Virus record (IMG/VR): IMGVR_UViG_3300022200_001730
Coordinates: 1 to 22,031 of that record
Strand: one strand, 5' to 3'
From: a virus
Length of the DNA: 22,031 nt
Within the stretch, counting starts at the first letter, position 1, and the number at the start of each line of letters is the position of its first letter. The notes below the pieces were generated by a model. The model searched no databases. It saw only the letters and a list, made by a program, of their open reading frames with translations, and was not told the origin of the DNA. Below are positions 5,533 through 15,790 of this stretch, piece after piece. Position numbers and translations under genes: made by a program.

Positions 5533-5561
5533 AAAAAAAAAGGGGAACATTTCTGCTCCCC
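5533..5561 (-). terminator. Rho-independent terminator
   Basis: On the minus strand GGGGAGCA pairs with TGTTCCCC (8 bp, one G-U) around a GAAA tetraloop, followed by nine T (5541-5533). It lies 11 bases after the stop of the 5572-5910 gene. Its T-tract also supplies the -33 element of the next promoter. Confidence 0.85.
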
Positions 5562-5922: not shown

Positions 5923-6348
5923 TTAATATTGCGTTTGAATTTGCTCATCGATGTAACTACTTGTGTAGCCTGTGTATGACTCTACATACTCTCCGTTGTT
6001 GTAGTGGATGTTGTCGGGAACGAAGTAAACCCAAGCATTGTAAGTTTTACCATCTACTACGACATCTATTTGCTCTCGCTTGTAGAATCTTGGATGCCCC
6101 TCAAGTAAGTCCAAGTTGTACATCTCGAAAGGATTGCAGTCGTATAGTTCTACGACCACATTGTTACCATCCTCGTGTTCCCCTTGAATCATGTAAGGTA
6201 TACCGCTGACGCATAGTCGGTACTTGTCTTTGGTTCTACCCTCTCCAATGAAAGTTGCGTTGGTTAGCAACCTGTGATTACCGAAGCCACGCTTCAGCGT
6301 ACCATAAACTGCGACTAACTGATTAGTCTCAAAGATTTGTTTTCTCAT
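5923..6348 (-). CDS. Gamma-glutamylcyclotransferase-like (AIG2/GGCT family) protein
   Basis: The 141-residue protein shows the GGCT-like fold signatures: VAVYGTLKRGFGNHRLL at residues ~12-28 (the YGTLK/R..G substrate loop), a beta-rich core, and LDLLEGHPRFYKRE at 79-92, where Glu83 occupies the place of the catalytic general acid/base Glu. Family members cleave gamma-glutamyl amides, releasing 5-oxoproline. Its start at 6348 overlaps the previous gene (ATGA) and follows TTAACCAAAGACAAAG. It is on the same strand as a class II glutamine amidotransferase (6890-7648) and a GS-fold amidoligase (8384-9895), which suggests a shared gamma-glutamyl or peptide pathway. Confidence 0.85.
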   Translation of the reverse strand: MRKQIFETNQLVAVYGTLKRGFGNHRLLTNATFIGEGRTKDKYRLCVSGIPYMIQGEHEDGNNVVVELYDCNPFEMYNLDLLEGHPRFYKREQIDVVVDGKTYNAWVYFVPDNIHYNNGEYVESYTGYTSSYIDEQIQTQY

Positions 6349-6500
6349 ATTACTTTGTCTTTGGTTAATTCTCTTACTACTGCCTCAATCTCCGCACCTT
6401 TCATACGGATGTATGAGTTATCCATCATATCTCCATAAGACAGCATATCCTCGCTTAGTTCGATTAGCCTGTCGTATAGTCGTTGTTCCCTCAATGTCAT
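6345..6500 (-). CDS. Small helical hypothetical protein, 51 aa
   Basis: ATG 6500 to TGA 6345-6347 encodes MTLREQRLYDRLIELSEDML and a further acidic helical segment with several Met. It starts inside the stop of the gene upstream (TAATG) and ends in ATGA with the GGCT-like gene, so it is embedded in a tightly coupled chain. The start motif for the GGCT gene lies within its last codons. Function unknown. Confidence 0.6.
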   Translation of the reverse strand: MTLREQRLYDRLIELSEDMLSYGDMMDNSYIRMKGAEIEAVVRELTKDKVI

Positions 6501-6652
6501 TACGCAAAGATTAATTTGTTTGTACTCAATTCAATTACCTCGGAATGTTCTCCTCGGTTAGCCCACTTTAGGGCAAGTTCCAAATCATAGAAGAAGTAGG
6601 TTTCATCCTTCATCTCCCCACCGTGATATATGTTTACTTGATAATTAGGCAT
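6500..6652 (-). CDS. Small hypothetical protein, 50 aa
   Basis: ATG 6652 to TAA 6500-6502 encodes MPNYQVNIYHGGEMKDETYF followed by FYDLELALKWANRGEHSEVI. The beta-beta-helix-beta arrangement and the DLELALKWA helix look like a genuine folded mini-protein. It overlaps the upstream membrane-protein gene by 8 bases and the downstream gene by one. No family recognised. Confidence 0.65.
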   Translation of the reverse strand: MPNYQVNIYHGGEMKDETYFFYDLELALKWANRGEHSEVIELSTNKLIFA

Positions 6653-6815
6653 TGTTGTCATCGTTTAGATTGAAGAATATGATTGCGGATACGAGACCTA
6701 TTACCATACCGAACAGGAATAACGGATGTTTCTCGTGACCGAATGATGATGCATTCATCAACAGGAAGAATAACGATATGATTCCTCCCGCATAGTTTTT
6801 TAGTTTTCTTGTCAT
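6645..6815 (-). CDS. Small two-helix membrane protein, 56 aa
   Basis: ATG 6815 to TAA 6645-6647 encodes a protein with a basic start (MTRKLKNYAGG), a first hydrophobic helix (about 9-24), a polar turn with His and Glu, and a second helix (LFLFGMVIGLVSAIIFF, about 32-48), ending LNDDNNA. The positive-inside rule places both termini in doubt; a hairpin in the inner membrane is likely. It heads the chain of sub-60-residue genes leading into the GGCT-like gene. Holin or exclusion roles are possible but unsupported. Confidence 0.65.
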   Translation of the reverse strand: MTRKLKNYAGGIISLFFLLMNASSFGHEKHPLFLFGMVIGLVSAIIFFNLNDDNNA

Positions 6816-6841
6816 TGTGAATTAGATTTTAGATTGATTAT

Positions 6842-6872
6842 GGGAAGCGCCACCATTACAGCAACGCCTCCC
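6842..6872 (-). other. Intergenic hairpin without T-tract
   Basis: On the minus strand GGGAGGCG pairs with CGCTTCCC (8 bp, one G-U) around a 15-base loop, in the 74-base gap after the amidotransferase gene. No run of T follows, so it is more likely an RNA-processing or stabilising hairpin than a terminator. Confidence 0.45.
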
Positions 6873-6889
6873 AACCTAACCAACCAATA

Positions 6890-7648
6890 TTAGTATTTGA
6901 CCCAAGTGTTGGACTCTAAGTCGAAGTGTTCCTCTTGACTATCTAAGTCTTTATCCCAATCATCGAACAGGTTTCTCGTAGGAGTAGCCTTCTTGTACGA
7001 ATCATTGTAATACTTGTACTTCTCAGCAGTTGTCTTGTGTGACGACAGCGAAGTCTTAGCAACCTTATTGTTACCTTGGTACACCCAAGAACGTACCTCC
7101 TTGTAAGAGTCGTTAGACATCCAATCTCCGTTAGCAGTCCAATGACCTAAGTGCTCGTTGAAGATTTCAAAGTTGCCCGATGAGTCAACAAACGCAAGTT
7201 TACTCTTACCAATGACAGCGTATATGAGTTGACGCAGACCGCTGTGCTTGAGCATAGCAGTTGAGTTGCCTTTGAATGTGCCGATGATTTGCGCCAAGTG
7301 GCGAGAATCGGACATTGTATCATCTCCAAGTGAACTGATGGTTCCGTTGTGACCCATAGCCATCTTGTCCTCACGAACATAGAATGGATGGATGTTAGCA
7401 TCGCTACGACCACCGCTTGATGAGATACGGAAGTGAAGAATCATTGGCTTGTCTACCATCTTGCGTACACTCTTGTACTCGCTGTAGAATTCCTCGAAGT
7501 CAGTAAACTTTTCGATGAACACGCATCTTTCGTTGTGCTCGTTAGTGAACGGATAAGCCATACCGCCTCCGTGTGAGTTGTTGTCCCAAGCATTCTTGAG
7601 TTGTTGCTTGGCGATTAAGTTTGTTTGATTTACGATTAGCAAACACAT
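6890..7648 (-). CDS. Class II glutamine amidotransferase (Ntn hydrolase) protein
   Basis: Starting at ATG 7648 the protein begins MCLLIVNQTN, so removal of Met exposes the N-terminal Cys nucleophile of class II amidotransferases. The family's later blocks are visible: NNSHGGGMAY (~28-37), HFRISSSGGRSDANIHPF (~71-88), equivalent to the H-x-R-x-x-x-x-G substrate-binding block, and GHNGTI (~98-103). A longer frame from 7720 would bury the Cys and is rejected. The C-terminal ~90 residues are polar and do not look like a synthase domain, so this is a stand-alone glutaminase module of 252 residues. It would hydrolyse glutamine, or a gamma-glutamyl amide, possibly supplying ammonia to the amidoligase (8384-9895). 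It has a consensus promoter. Confidence 0.85.
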   Translation of the reverse strand: MCLLIVNQTNLIAKQQLKNAWDNNSHGGGMAYPFTNEHNERCVFIEKFTDFEEFYSEYKSVRKMVDKPMILHFRISSSGGRSDANIHPFYVREDKMAMGHNGTISSLGDDTMSDSRHLAQIIGTFKGNSTAMLKHSGLRQLIYAVIGKSKLAFVDSSGNFEIFNEHLGHWTANGDWMSNDSYKEVRSWVYQGNNKVAKTSLSSHKTTAEKYKYYNDSYKKATPTRNLFDDWDKDLDSQEEHFDLESNTWVKY

Positions 7649-7706
7649 AGTTGGTTGGACTGCTGTTATATCCCATTGCAGACATCGGTGTTGGTTAAAC
7701 TTGGTG

Positions 7707-7738
7707 CAAATATACACCATTAAGATTGATTGTGCAAA
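7707..7738 (-). promoter_or_regulatory. Consensus Bacteroidota promoter for the amidotransferase gene
   Basis: On the minus strand TTTG (7738-7735) and TATATTTG (7714-7707) are separated by exactly 20 bases, the canonical -33/-7 arrangement. Expected transcription start is near 7702, giving a roughly 50-base leader that contains TTTAACCAACACC and CCAACCAACT before ATG 7648. Confidence 0.8.
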
Positions 7739-7773
7739 TTTTTTCCCAAAGTAAGTGGGTTACAATGTGGAAA

Positions 7774-7917
7774 TTACTTGTTTTCAAGGATGTATTTTCT
7801 TACTTGGTACTGCTCATCCTCGTTGCAGTCTTTCCAAGCCTTACCTGTAATTCTCTTTGAGTTGAATATCAGTCTTGATGTCCAAATCGGTTCGTTCATA
7901 ATTTCTTCTCTTGTCAT
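7774..7917 (-). CDS. Small hypothetical protein, 47 aa
   Basis: The frame is open to 7968, but ATG 7917 makes an exact ATGA overlap with the stop of the upstream gene, so MTREEIMNEPIWTSRLIFNS is the preferred N-terminus (ATG 7941 is an alternative). Basic and helical, containing KAWKDCNEDEQYQVRKYIL. No family recognised. It ends 36 bases before the amidotransferase promoter. Confidence 0.55.
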   Translation of the reverse strand: MTREEIMNEPIWTSRLIFNSKRITGKAWKDCNEDEQYQVRKYILENK

Positions 7918-8195
7918 TTCTCTTTCATTTTGATTAAACATAATTGAAGTAGTCGGATTCGATAACACAATCCGTGAAATATCTTTTCATCCTCATCGAT
8001 TTCGTGCTCCAATATTCCATGCATTTCGTACAGCCTATCGTTGTAAGAAGATGTTTCGGATACAGCAAATAAGAGCGCATCATCAGTGTAGTTTTTTTCC
8101 AAGGTGCTCAGTATAGTTTTGATCTCCTTGTAGTCGTGCTTACCATTCTTTTCCAAGTTGAATAGTTGCACTCGAAGTTGTTGAATTGAATCCAT
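7914..8195 (-). CDS. Helical hypothetical protein, 93 aa
   Basis: All-helical, charged protein beginning MDSIQQLRVQLFNLEKNGKH, with likely coiled-coil character in the first 35 residues and a basic C-terminus (LCLIKMKEK). The start at 8195 follows ATTAACCACAAACAAATTG, a clear copy of the start motif. It is the first gene after the terminator at 8255-8287. No TAnnTTTG promoter is visible in the gap. Function unknown. Confidence 0.7.
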   Translation of the reverse strand: MDSIQQLRVQLFNLEKNGKHDYKEIKTILSTLEKNYTDDALLFAVSETSSYNDRLYEMHGILEHEIDEDEKIFHGLCYRIRLLQLCLIKMKEK

Positions 8196-8254
8196 AGTAC
8201 AATTTGTTTGTGGTTAATGCCTTGTCGGTACTCGATTGTTGATAGTGGGCTGAG

Positions 8255-8287
8255 AAAAAATGAGCGCCCGAGAATCCCCGAGCGCCC
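8255..8287 (-). terminator. Rho-independent terminator after the amidoligase gene
   Basis: The minus strand reads GGGCGCTCGGG, GATT, CTCGGGCGCTC, then A and TTTTTT. The quasi-palindromic GGGCGCTC occurs twice, so the two copies pair with each other through G-C and G-U pairs to give an 11-bp stem with a four-base loop. It lies about 100 bases after the amidoligase stop. Confidence 0.8.
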
Positions 8288-8334
8288 ACAATCATTAACC
8301 CAAATATCCACCTACCGATGAATAAGTTAATAGG

Positions 8335-8374
8335 AGATGGTGTGGGAATCGAACCCACATTAACCATTCCATCC
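8335..8374 (-). other. tRNA-like T-arm with short acceptor-like stem
   Basis: On the minus strand a canonical T-arm, GTGGG-TTCGATT-CCCAC (8358-8342), is enclosed by GGATGG (8374-8369) and CCATCT (8340-8335), giving six more pairs. No D-arm, anticodon arm or CCA is visible, and no 5' acceptor partner for a full-length tRNA was found upstream. It begins within about 10 bases of the amidoligase stop. It may be a tRNA remnant, an attachment-site-like 3' fragment of a host tRNA, or an RNA-end structure. Confidence 0.45.
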
Positions 8375-8383
8375 TTAGCATCA

Positions 8384-9895
8384 TCACTGATTGACTGCGA
8401 TGCTTTGTACATTCCATACACGACTCGCACATCTGCGAACCTCTTGGAATTGATTGAACGCTGTGATGATTCTATCGCCCTTGTGTTTAACATCATCCGA
8501 TGTTCCACTGATATCGATAGAGCCATTCTCGTTCTCGTACATATGTCCGAAGGCAAGAACCAATGCGAACTTGTCACGAATGCGTTTGCTGTCGTACATC
8601 TTACGCATAACCTTGCGTAGTGGATGCTTGTCAGTAACGAGCGCATTGGCTACATCCTTGTAGGACTGAACCTCCCCGCTGTCAATCATATCAGCGATTA
8701 CCTGTAGAAGTTGAACTCTCCACCAAGCGCCCTCCATTGAAGGCACACCACTGAATATGCGAATCTCAACACCGAATGATTTCACATTGAATGCTCTGCG
8801 AGTGTTAGTGATTGAGCCTTTACTAACAGCGCCTCCGTAACCTGTATTCAATCGCCCGATGTACAGGCTGTAGAAGAACGGAACGAAGTGATGCAAGTGT
8901 GTGAGCAATTCACGACCACCCAAACCGGCTTTGCTGATGGTCATATGACCTCCACAGGCTGTGCGACAAGCATTGCCGTTGTCATCTAATTTCGCATCCA
9001 ACATCCATCTATGTTGTTGGAAGTTTTTGCGAACCAATGAGCCGTTGTGTAGTGGTAGGATTGGCGAGATGAACTCAACACCTCCATTGCCTAATGAACC
9101 ATCACGCTCTGCGCCCCATCCATCACACTTGCCTCCCAAGTATGATGCGTATGCTTTTGCATCGCTGTCTTGCTTCTCAGCCTCGATACCGAAATACCAT
9201 TTACCTGTCTCCATCGTAGCATCGAATGGCGCTCGGTAATTACCGCTTCCGTGGTAACCGAATATGTTGCTACCACCATTGTCGTTCACAGCGATGTCCC
9301 AAGCACGATAGTCGTTCAAGGTAACCAAGGCTGTAACACCACCGATGGTCAATCGTTCGAGCCTGTTGCCGTATGTCTCTGCTCCCTCGTACTTGAAGAA
9401 ATCGAATTCATCGCCCCATTGTACTGATGGTGCGTTGTTGCCTCGTTGAGCCATCCAATCGTTGAATGGTAGAACACCTCGAACATTTGAGCCGTTGATG
9501 ATTACCTTTCGTGCTGTGCGTACAGCGTACTCGGGTAACTGCTGTCCGTTGAAATCAACGAGGTGCTGTGTATCCGCAGGGAAGTAGAACACATTGCCCG
9601 ATGCATCGGTGTACTTCTTGCCGTTCTCGATGTTACCTCCGTTGATTAGTCTAACGTTGGTCACGTTTCCATTCTCATTGAATACGTAGATGCTTTGAGT
9701 ATTGCTACTCATATCTGCTTGAGCGATAAAGTCCCAAGCGATATCAACGCTGTTCCAATTGTCGTGAGTTACTCGAAATGATTTCGCTACTCGCATTGCT
9801 ACATTCGAGTGAATGTATCCGTTGTGGAATGAAGATAAACGAGCGTTTTCCTCATTGATTCTGCGCCCTGTTAGGACATTGATTACTTGTGGCAT
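8384..9895 (-). CDS. GS-fold amidoligase (COOH-NH2 ligase) with large N-terminal extension
   Basis: Starting at ATG 9895 (MPQVINVLTG) the protein is 503 residues. The C-terminal ~270 match the glutamine-synthetase-like amidoligase family in order: YFGIEAE (~234-240), GWGAERDGSL (~259-268), GVEFISPIL (~272-280), CGGHMTIS (~314-321) and FGVEIRIFSG (~374-383). These acidic and His residues correspond to the ATP- and metal-binding positions. The N-terminal ~225 residues are an additional beta-rich region I do not recognise. Family members form amide or peptide bonds between carboxylates and amines. An upstream ATG at 9922 is rejected because TTTAACCCAAAAAAATTA, the recurrent start motif, lies between the two. 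The gene is bounded by tRNA-like fragments on both sides and a terminator downstream. Confidence 0.85.
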   Translation of the reverse strand: MPQVINVLTGRRINEENARLSSFHNGYIHSNVAMRVAKSFRVTHDNWNSVDIAWDFIAQADMSSNTQSIYVFNENGNVTNVRLINGGNIENGKKYTDASGNVFYFPADTQHLVDFNGQQLPEYAVRTARKVIINGSNVRGVLPFNDWMAQRGNNAPSVQWGDEFDFFKYEGAETYGNRLERLTIGGVTALVTLNDYRAWDIAVNDNGGSNIFGYHGSGNYRAPFDATMETGKWYFGIEAEKQDSDAKAYASYLGGKCDGWGAERDGSLGNGGVEFISPILPLHNGSLVRKNFQQHRWMLDAKLDDNGNACRTACGGHMTISKAGLGGRELLTHLHHFVPFFYSLYIGRLNTGYGGAVSKGSITNTRRAFNVKSFGVEIRIFSGVPSMEGAWWRVQLLQVIADMIDSGEVQSYKDVANALVTDKHPLRKVMRKMYDSKRIRDKFALVLAFGHMYENENGSIDISGTSDDVKHKGDRIITAFNQFQEVRRCASRVWNVQSIAVNQ

Positions 9896-9924
9896 AATAG
9901 ATAATTTTTTTGGGTTAAACATTC

Positions 9925-9943
9925 TGACCTATGCCTTAGGTCA
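9925..9943 (-). promoter_or_regulatory. Leader hairpin upstream of the amidoligase
   Basis: TGACCTA and TAGGTCA form a perfect 7-bp stem with a five-base loop, ending 29 bases before the amidoligase ATG. It sits between the tRNA-like element (9947-10003) and the start motif, and could affect translation or RNA processing. Confidence 0.5.
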
Positions 9944-9946
9944 TTG

Positions 9947-10003
9947 CGCCCTACAGCAGAATCGAACTGCTGACCTCCCGTTTGAAGTAGACCACTTAGG
10001 GCA
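9947..10003 (-). other. tRNA-like element lacking a D-arm, 57 nt
   Basis: On the minus strand a 7-bp acceptor-like stem forms between TGCCCTA (10003-9997) and TAGGGCG (9953-9947; one terminal T-G). Inside it are a 5-bp hairpin, ACTTC-AAACGG-GAGGT (9988-9973), in the anticodon-arm position, and a canonical T-arm, AGCAG-TTCGATT-CTGCT (9971-9955). The D-arm is replaced by about 8 bases and there is no encoded CCA. Standard tRNAs are about 73 nt, so this is either a decayed tRNA, a D-armless tRNA mimic or a structured leader element of the amidoligase mRNA. Confidence 0.5.
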
Positions 10004-10021
10004 AACACTACAACAGCATTG

Positions 10022-10192
10022 CGCTCCCGATTAAGCAAGGTGTTACAGGACATTCCAAACGATTATTGCCGTAACACGACATCCTCCCTCGTTGATGAAT
10101 TAAGCGCCCGAGCACAAGACCCTGTTTGTACGCTCCCAATCTCCTCAAGATTCAATCATTGTGATACGGATTCCAAACGCTCCCGATTGAGC
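10022..10192. repeat. Repeated CGCTCCC / GCGCCC motifs in the divergent gap
   Basis: CGCTCCCGATT occurs at 10022-10032 and 10178-10188, with the variant CGCTCCCAATC at 10131-10141. The copy at 10178 forms a small hairpin, CGCTC-CCGATT-GAGCG. ATTCCAAACG is repeated at 10052-10061 and 10170-10179. GCGCCC recurs here and elsewhere in non-coding DNA. Could be iteron-like binding sites. Confidence 0.45.
10040..10077. repeat. Inverted repeat GTGTTAC...GTAACAC
   Basis: A perfect 7-bp inverted repeat, GTGTTAC (10040-10046) and GTAACAC (10071-10077), encloses 24 bases. It lies in the C-rich half of the divergent gap among other short repeats. Confidence 0.5.
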
Positions 10193-10342
10193 GCCCTAAC
10201 CATATGTTCGAAACAGCCTACAAGCATCCTCAATGCTCCGCTGTTGATTGTGTTTATACTGCCTAACAAAACCCAAAACTTAAGGTACTCTCGTTGATAT
10301 CCTATGGCTATCTCCTACCCTCTCTTAAGCCCCAAGATGCCT

Positions 10343-10358
10343 ACAGCGTGGTCGCTGT
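10343..10358. repeat. Perfect 6-bp hairpin ACAGCG-TGGT-CGCTGT
   Basis: A GC-rich hairpin with a four-base loop in non-coding DNA; no T-tract on either side, so it does not look like a terminator. Confidence 0.4.
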
Positions 10359-11244
10359 GACAAATGTCGCTTTGATGAATTCCTGTCTACTCTCACATCC
10401 CTAAACTCCCAACAACAATTTTACCCCTTTGACATTTGACCGAAGTCCTCACTGCTTACCTCCTAATGCCCCATAGGTACATTTGGTTTCTGCTGTGACT
10501 CCGCCTCCAAGTTTACATTGCTTAAAGTTGGTTGCTTAAGGTAGTTACCATATGACCACCTATTCGCAGTGTGCATCCGTATTTCAAGATGCTCGTGCTC
10601 CGACTCGTTTCCCTCCCTCACATTGATGCTCCGTTGCCGACATTGATTCGAGTGTTTAATGCCCACAAGTACGGCTGTCAGCGATGGCGCTGTGATGATG
10701 GTTGCGAGTGCAGATTTCAAATAACGTTTGTCCCTTTCGACATTGCAATGATACGGCAATATTTTGATTCCACAAGCGATGTGGAGAAAAAAAACACAAC
10801 AGATGTGAAATTGAGTATAAATACCTATGTGAGACTGGAACGCAATAAGTGGGTATATATAGCCTATGTGTAATGCCTGTTTAGGGTAGTGTATTGGATG
10901 ATTGATATGTGGATGGGGTATTGTACGACCTGTCCAATGAAGTGCGCCCACAATCCATTACATAGTATACAGGGAAACGATACGGATGCAGTACATAGGT
11001 AGTCCACTATCAACGCCTAGGTAGGTAGTGGCTGTGCATCGTAGTGGTGAAAGGTAGGAAGTGTGTAAGGCTGTGCGGAAACGCTGAAATGTGTGGGGCG
11101 GAACGCTCGATTGATAGGGGGTTGGGTTGCGGATTCCGTTTCGGTGTGTGCCTGCGTGCGTGATATATGTATTATAATCCCCACATTCTATATTTCTCAG
11201 CACTTTTAACATAACCTGTAAAACATATTCCTCAAAAAAGGGTA

Positions 11245-15211: not shown

Positions 15212-15790
15212 ATGCAGCCATTACATCATTTTGTGGTCAAGCTTCCACAAAAGTTCAAGGATAAAATAAACGTTGGAGGAATAGAACTCGAGCTTGTAGC
15301 AAAGTTTAATGAGTTCCAACACAGGTTCAACTATGGTCATATAGTTGCAGCACCTACTGCATTTAAAGACGCTCCATACATTGGTCAAATACTATACTTC
15401 CACCACCATGTTGTGATGGAGCAAATCTATGACATCGGTGACGACTTATATCTTGTTAACTACGATCCAAACGGAGGATATGGAAACCATGCTATCGCAA
15501 TCGAAGACGAAGCTGGTGATATTACTATGCTTGGTGATTGGTGTTTCGTTTTACCCCCAGATGAGGAGGAAGAGACAACAACTGCTTCTGGCCTCATTCT
15601 TGAGCTCAAAAAAGAACCAAAACTGGAAGGCGAACTACTCGCCCTACCCAGAAGTGCAGAATGGTTTGGAGTGGGCGTTGGTGAGGTGGTGGGCTACCGA
15701 AAGAATTCGCAGTATGAAATGGAACTTCTTGACGGCACTAAGGTGTACCGTATGAGAGCAACTGAATTAATGTATGCCAAAGAAAAGTAA
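15212..15790 (+). CDS. Tandem GroES-like co-chaperonin, 192 aa
   Basis: The second half is clearly GroES-like: WCFVLPPDEEEETTTASGLI, GELLALP, VGVGEVVGYRKN and DGTKVYRMRATELMYAKE follow the GroES order (strand, mobile loop with TASGI/LIL, G-x-V-x-A, kvGdxV, ylvlre-x-dil-a). The first half shows the same plan: FVVKLPQKFKDKINVGGIEL, YGHIVAAP, IGQILYFHHH and GDDLYLV. So two GroES domains appear fused, at about 1-95 and 105-192. GroES caps GroEL; phage versions such as T4 gp31 replace host GroES for capsid folding. The TASGLIL segment is in the mobile-loop position that contacts GroEL. Two-domain GroES proteins are known from plant chloroplast Cpn20. Position just before the terminase fits a head-assembly role. 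Confidence 0.75.
   Translation: MQPLHHFVVKLPQKFKDKINVGGIELELVAKFNEFQHRFNYGHIVAAPTAFKDAPYIGQILYFHHHVVMEQIYDIGDDLYLVNYDPNGGYGNHAIAIEDEAGDITMLGDWCFVLPPDEEEETTTASGLILELKKEPKLEGELLALPRSAEWFGVGVGEVVGYRKNSQYEMELLDGTKVYRMRATELMYAKEK

Follow-up and report, generated by a model that had tools for sequence, protein, structure and literature searches.

A divergent phage amidoligase–glutamine amidotransferase cassette with a candidate structured RNA upstream of its ligase

What might a phage modify with an amidoligase, a glutamine amidotransferase and a gamma-glutamylcyclotransferase encoded close together, and do the three enzymes belong to one pathway at all? The question is raised by the virus record IMGVR_UViG_3300022200_001730 (IMG/VR), of which we analysed positions 1 to 22,031, a stretch of 22,031 bases hereafter called the window. 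The three open reading frames (ORFs) all lie on the minus strand (Table 1), at the coordinates given in a preliminary description of this DNA, which had also suggested that they form a phage pathway of gamma-glutamyl or amide modification. The analysis supports that idea and identifies the system as a divergent variant of a published, biochemically uncharacterised phage cassette. One close relative of the window, the fully syntenic contig L002 (identity: GGCT, 77%; GATase, 82%; ligase, 57%; where GATase denotes the glutamine amidotransferase and GGCT the gamma-glutamylcyclotransferase), was used for comparison throughout.

Gene linkage was assessed by profile scans of viral contigs together with hidden Markov model annotation, counting loci with at least 2 kb of flank. 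GATase lay downstream of the ligase in 65/65 ligase-seeded loci, and the ligase lay upstream of GATase in 61/61 GATase-seeded loci; because near-duplicates are frequent among these loci, the counts do not represent independent events. The two genes overlapped or were at most 20 nucleotides (nt) apart in 50 of 146 pairs. About 64 loci, those of the public phages MW202828 and C75C1 among them, encode GATase and GGCT as a single polypeptide; GGCT formed a separate gene elsewhere in some other records, and was not found in several phages that carry ligase and GATase. It was also absent from 7/7 loci of the order ligase-GATase-ligase (L010-L014, L021 and L045), two of which lie in 61-kb records and some others of which are short fragments. 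Since the ligase-GATase linkage is universal and the presence of GGCT varies, ligase and GATase are the obligate core and GGCT is an optional third step. The functional linkage that had been proposed for the three genes is thus backed by their co-occurrence. In the two public fusions (L003 6001-7218, MW202828, UOF82491; L004 4001-4897, C75C1), the protein is publicly named only gamma-glutamyl cyclotransferase, although a class II GATase domain makes up its N-terminal half. An anti-phage defence system was considered and rejected, with no match in PADLOC.

Searched alone, the window ligase matched no Pfam, PHROG or NCBIfam family, and it gave no direct profile match to Amidoligase_2 (PF12224) above the curated cut-off. 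When the ligase profile was aligned to phage proteins matching PF12224 (6/6 of the partner set, best 1.9e-8), the hhalign probability was 95.7% with E = 1e-8; by profile comparison, the window ligase is homologous to Amidoligase_2, short of formal Pfam membership. Residues G236, E238, E240, D265, S267, E274, G315, H317, E377 and R379 are invariant in 42 ligase relatives. The catalytic domain is C-terminal (approximately residues 225-460), whereas residues 1-220 are variable. A Foldseek search with the modelled C-terminal domain returned gamma-glutamylmethylamide synthetase (GmaS; 9qur, E = 2.4e-4, prob 1.00) as the best match, with further matches to glutamine synthetase (GS), Dop and PafA; template-modelling (TM) scores were low in these matches because residues 1-220 were unmodelled. 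Viral fold matches include annotated phage amidoligases, for example that of Pseudomonas phage tf. The predicted fold of the C-terminal domain is GS-like, and residues and model together point to an ATP-dependent amidoligase of this fold as the predicted activity.

The preliminary description had called the approximately 225-residue N-terminal region of the ligase unusual. In relatives, the part that precedes the catalytic domain varies in length between about 58 and 426 residues, so that the region is not exceptional; the version found in the window is shared by L002 only, and its predicted structure has a predicted local distance difference test score (pLDDT) <50. The start codon, ATG at 9895, is backed by L002, and another in-frame ATG lies at 9922. 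The A6 profile scan returned no bacterial relatives of the ligase.

For GATase, single-sequence matches were weak (PF13522, E = 3e-4). Across 11 relatives, Cys2, H72-F73-R74, H100-N101-G102 and S113-D114 are invariant, and GlmS (1xff) aligns over the HFR and HNG segments. The AlphaFold model (pLDDT 75) matched the folds of GFAT (6r4e, E = 3.5e-6), GlmS, PurF and EgtC. By its N-terminal Cys, glutamine-site residues and predicted fold, the protein is a class II GATase with an N-terminal nucleophile (Ntn) domain. Its bacterial relatives are few; five of seven adjoin a ligase, one of them in Chitinophaga eiseniae. In that chromosome (L168 6775-8750), the ligase-GATase pair stands beside genes resembling conjugation (Tra) proteins.

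The third protein matched PF06094 (E = 3.8e-23, 82.8 bits against a cut-off of 22.8) and phrog_2520 (E = 1.6e-26), and neither VYGTLKxG nor the catalytic Glu83 (LEGHP) varies in its alignment. Its nearest solved structures are the GGACT/AIG2 proteins 3jub, 2kl2 and 1vkb (E about 1e-13), and by profile, YGTL motif and catalytic Glu it is assigned to PF06094 (GGACT/AIG2), the cyclotransferase subgroup acting on gamma-glutamylamines. Profiles, motifs and predicted folds therefore bear out all three families first named from motifs (a GS-fold ligase, an N-terminal-Cys glutaminase and a GGCT), and Cys2, Glu83 and the GS-like acidic residues align with those of their families.

We hold with moderate confidence that the genes form an accessory early-region phage cassette of the podoviral "peptidoglycan modification cassette" kind and work by the following scheme. 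GATase would use its Cys2 to cleave glutamine (or a gamma-glutamyl amide); the ligase would use ATP to activate a substrate carboxylate, as glutamine synthetase and gamma-glutamylmethylamide synthetase do, and would join it to the released ammonia or to another amine; and GGCT would release gamma-glutamyl groups in the form of 5-oxoproline, which would edit the product or clear by-products. By analogy and on a published proposal, the likeliest substrate would be a peptidoglycan stem-peptide carboxylate, through which the host wall may be altered during infection. Ammonia supply is favoured by the obligate ligase-GATase pairing, with genes that often overlap. Judged from contig content, the cassette is accessory within the window's own terminase-defined group (80 terminase relatives), because the ligase was seen only in L216 and L218, which are identical in sequence, though several ligase-negative relatives (among them L177, L185 and L248) extend well into the cassette region.

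Several points weigh against this scheme. The cell-wall role is a published hypothesis; the ligase-GATase pair also occurs by Tra-like genes in the Chitinophaga chromosome, and its role therefore need not be phage-specific; ATP-grasp and second-ligase genes were not detected in the scanned parts of the window's 22 kb or in L002, both contigs being incomplete where relatives' genomes are about 62 kb; and ligase and GATase are separated in the window by 735 nt that contain a terminator-like hairpin and a promoter-like site.

Possible, though held only tentatively, is a gamma-glutamyl add-and-remove cycle like those of ergothioneine (EgtA/EgtC) and butirosin (BtrJ/BtrG), in which the ligase would add gamma-glutamate to an amine, the GATase-like Ntn hydrolase and GGCT would remove it, and the product would be a small molecule or a modified amine. 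EgtC removes gamma-glutamate within a defined pathway, and it is among the fold matches of GATase, although GlmS and GFAT score above it. Among solved structures, the ligase is matched best by gamma-glutamylmethylamide synthetase, the GGCT is nearest to GGACT with its gamma-glutamylamine substrates, and the cycle is favoured by the GATase-GGCT fusion, GATase being fused to GGCT and not to the ligase. However, GATase is universal with the ligase and GGCT is not, which suits ammonia supply at least equally. Both readings fit the conserved residues because glutamine is itself a gamma-glutamyl amide.

Table 1. Features of the cassette region of the window (minus strand), with the basis of each assignment.
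Feature	Coordinates	Strand	Basis or remark
Predicted amidoligase, GS-like fold	8384..9895	-	Invariant GxExE, DGS, E274, CGGH, ExR; predicted fold
Class II GATase-like Ntn domain protein, Cys2 nucleophile	6890..7648	-	Motifs, predicted fold
GGACT/AIG2-like gamma-glutamyl(amine) cyclotransferase (GGCT), catalytic Glu83	5923..6348	-	Profile, motif, nearest structures
Conserved non-coding stretch, ~870 nt	9943..10813	-	Sense-strand RNA structure signal; L002 counterpart 9085-9950 (+)
tRNA-like acceptor/T-arm element just 5' of ligase	9948..10002	-	T-stem covaries in L002
tRNA-like acceptor/T-arm minihelix, 10 nt past ligase stop codon	8336..8373	-	Both stems covary in L002
Strong intrinsic terminator-like hairpin after ligase	8260..8289	-	13 bp, z -4.6, nearly identical in L002
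93-aa ORF between ligase and GATase	7914..8195	-	Conserved in L002 only
Bacteroidota-type promoter-like site TTTG-N20-TATATTTG ahead of GATase	7707..7738	-	Same position in L002 12684-12715
51-aa ORF overlapping GGCT start	6345..6500	-	Conserved in L002 only
Intrinsic-terminator-like hairpin downstream of GGCT and a 112-aa ORF	5542..5561	-	
TATAAT, putative promoter of RNA-ligase unit	11171..11176	-	Within element conserved at early-region start across the phage group

The arrangement of signals suggests that the ligase is probably cotranscribed with its upstream region and separately from GATase and GGCT, because a promoter-like site precedes GATase and terminator-like hairpins follow both the ligase and the GGCT unit. 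Sites of the TTTG-N20-TATATTTG type numbered 3 in the window against 0.8 expected; this Bacteroidota-type promoter-like site and the existence of a Chitinophaga relative argue that the host is probably a member of the Bacteroidota. The small ORFs bear on protein tagging: in the manner of PafA and Pup, the ligase would attach a peptide or an amino acid to proteins of the host or the virion, with the small ORFs as tags. PafA and Dop are indeed among the ligase fold matches and small ORFs are interspersed among the cassette genes, but such GS-fold matches are common to all amidoligases and the small ORFs show no conservation together with the cassette, so that we regard tagging as improbable. For one small ORF, a relative was found in a phage locus that lacks the ligase, and the earlier suggestion that proteins of fewer than 60 residues are substrates or tags was not supported.

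The early region of the window, on the minus strand, also encodes exonuclease VIII-like and Erf-like proteins, and the plus strand encodes terminase, portal and a GroES-like protein (a co-chaperonin gene at 15212-15790 (+), 5' of the terminase gene). Where early and late genes diverge, the element TGGGGATAATATAT... (about 11180-11070 (-)) is a candidate promoter or origin, kept in many relatives with the ligase present or absent (L013, L091, L022, L024, L177, L185 and L216).

Between the TATAAT-bearing conserved element (11176) and the ligase lies the non-coding stretch of approximately 870 nt, 81% identical in L002. A coding role was rejected, as codon periodicity is lacking and indels break the frame. 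Folded as a consensus, the sense strand reached -202 to -204 kcal/mol, where shuffled alignments reached about -151 to -153 (z of -6.0 and -7.2 in two runs), with 19 compensatory pairs against about 7.5 expected, in a covariation test of two sequences only (window and L002). Window-wise column-shuffle z values around -3 also appeared in control regions, which prompted the addition of coding controls drawn from the same two genomes. Five coding regions gave z from 1.4 to -2.7 with compensatory counts mostly near their nulls, the highest excess being that of the ERF/exonuclease antisense strand (15 compensatory pairs against 10.5). The single-sequence folding energy was not significant (z -0.57), and the two-sequence test alone was. 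Known RNA families were rejected as an explanation: no Rfam family matched at E up to 1 across the whole window, and at E up to 5 only chance-level matches appeared (beta_tmRNA, IS009 and others), far below gathering scores. Neither DNA patterns nor covariance models R1/R2 recovered a third copy beyond the window and L002. We therefore propose, with good confidence, a new large structured phage RNA upstream of the ligase, a candidate known from two phages; a functional tie between this RNA and the ligase is much less certain.

ARAGORN found no canonical tRNAs in the window. Elements resembling tRNA flank the ligase ORF on both sides (Table 1). In more distant ligase phages, a hairpin (loop GNGACCA) with a tRNA-like element is present at two places upstream, the second of them immediately preceding the ligase, and the acceptor and T-stem of these elements show some compensatory change. 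The hairpin GTGGNGACCACAC followed by AACGGAC, and often then by a tRNA-like element, was noted in L091 (6107-6562), L016 (6525-6900), L022 (6185-6850) and relatives. A scan of all viral contigs placed the hairpin motif in 54 contigs. Among those that could be judged, the ligase was present in 20/20 with two motif copies and in 2/22 with one copy (Fisher p 5e-10, a value overstated because the contigs are related). That the motif is specific to ligase-bearing phages was rejected, as a single copy occurs in 20 contigs without a detected ligase; contigs without the ligase retain the hairpin, and the tRNA-like element does not always follow it.

Punctuation of transcripts by RNase P at such tRNA-like elements is plausible. 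A broader proposal, which we consider unlikely, is an RNA-enzyme unit: a single transcript would contain the ~870-nt RNA, closed by a tRNA-like element, then the amidoligase ORF, the second tRNA-like element and the terminator, and the RNA elements would matter for the cassette, for example as partners of the ligase or through RNase P/tRNA-like punctuation by which the RNA and the mRNA of the ligase are released. Very doubtful is that the amidoligase acts on or with the bracketing RNAs, for instance with an aminoacylated tRNA-like element as amine donor. The elements do immediately flank the ligase ORF in the window and L002, and about 20 related contigs have a second hairpin/tRNA-like copy immediately preceding the ligase; against this, contigs in which no ligase was detected also carry the hairpin once, early genes of phages commonly have tRNAs and processing elements nearby, and no RNA-binding domain was identified. 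That the three are unrelated metabolic genes, neighbours by chance, is scarcely credible: the genes fall into at least two putative transcription units in the window, but the 65/65 and 61/61 linkage, far beyond chance, and the roughly 64 GATase-GGCT fusions contradict it.

What phage amidoligase cassettes act on has been asked since 2009, and the present analysis narrows the biochemistry to an inseparable core of ligase and glutaminase, with a cyclotransferase that is optional, often fused to the glutaminase and absent where two ligases are present, and this definition points to the proteins to purify together first. It also extends the module to phages of probable Bacteroidota hosts and to a conjugation-type gene neighbourhood. 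If real, the new RNA would be added to the very few giant phage RNAs that have no assigned function (GOLLD, ROOL), and a gene framed by tRNA-like elements would represent an uncommon way of punctuating transcripts.

The preliminary description had missed that the cassette was already published and that the ligase probably lies in a separate transcription unit, beside the conserved candidate structured RNA. The podoviral "peptidoglycan modification cassette" carries the same enzymes in RIO-1, PSA-HP1, LUZ24, PaP3, tf, phiEco32 and others (PMC5498523, PMC11945000), and phage UFV-P2 is also among the published cassettes. Amidoligase pathways were predicted by Iyer 2009, and a cell-wall target is proposed in PMC5498523 and in PMC10580990, the latter citing Iyer 2009. 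Like the window, the podoviral cassette places an amidoligase, a glutamine amidotransferase and a gamma-glutamyl cyclotransferase in the early/replication region. Larger cassettes of this kind also have an ATP-grasp enzyme and a second COOH-NH2 ligase, neither recognised in the scanned parts of the window's 22 kb of an incomplete genome. The window differs in that the ligase is too diverged for a Pfam match, small ORFs stand between the unfused genes of GATase and GGCT, and the host is probably a member of the Bacteroidota. The OM43 phages MEP401/402 (PMC10580990) have the same ligase-GATase pair, the window GATase being 39% identical to MEP402 gp07, whereas gp06, like its relatives, is a direct PF12224 match, the pair of genes in MEP402 overlaps and GGCT occurs in some relatives only. 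In the C75C1 and MW202828 fusions, with an amidoligase upstream, both domains are homologous to the window GATase and GGCT; unlike in the window they form one polypeptide, and the C75C1 ligase is short, with similarity undetectable by BLASTP. MurT/GatD (PMC3267633) and EgtA/EgtC likewise combine an ATP-dependent ligase with a glutaminase or an Ntn gamma-glutamyl amidase, MurT/GatD differing in their Mur-ligase fold and other glutaminase class. The part that looks new is the structured RNA with the tRNA-like elements beside the ligase. The candidate RNA matched no covariance model of GOLLD, ROOL, OLE or other known large RNA families and is known from two phages only; it resembles GOLLD and ROOL (PMC12286853), large structured phage RNAs found near tRNAs, and is similar to them in length, GOLLD often exceeding 800 nt.

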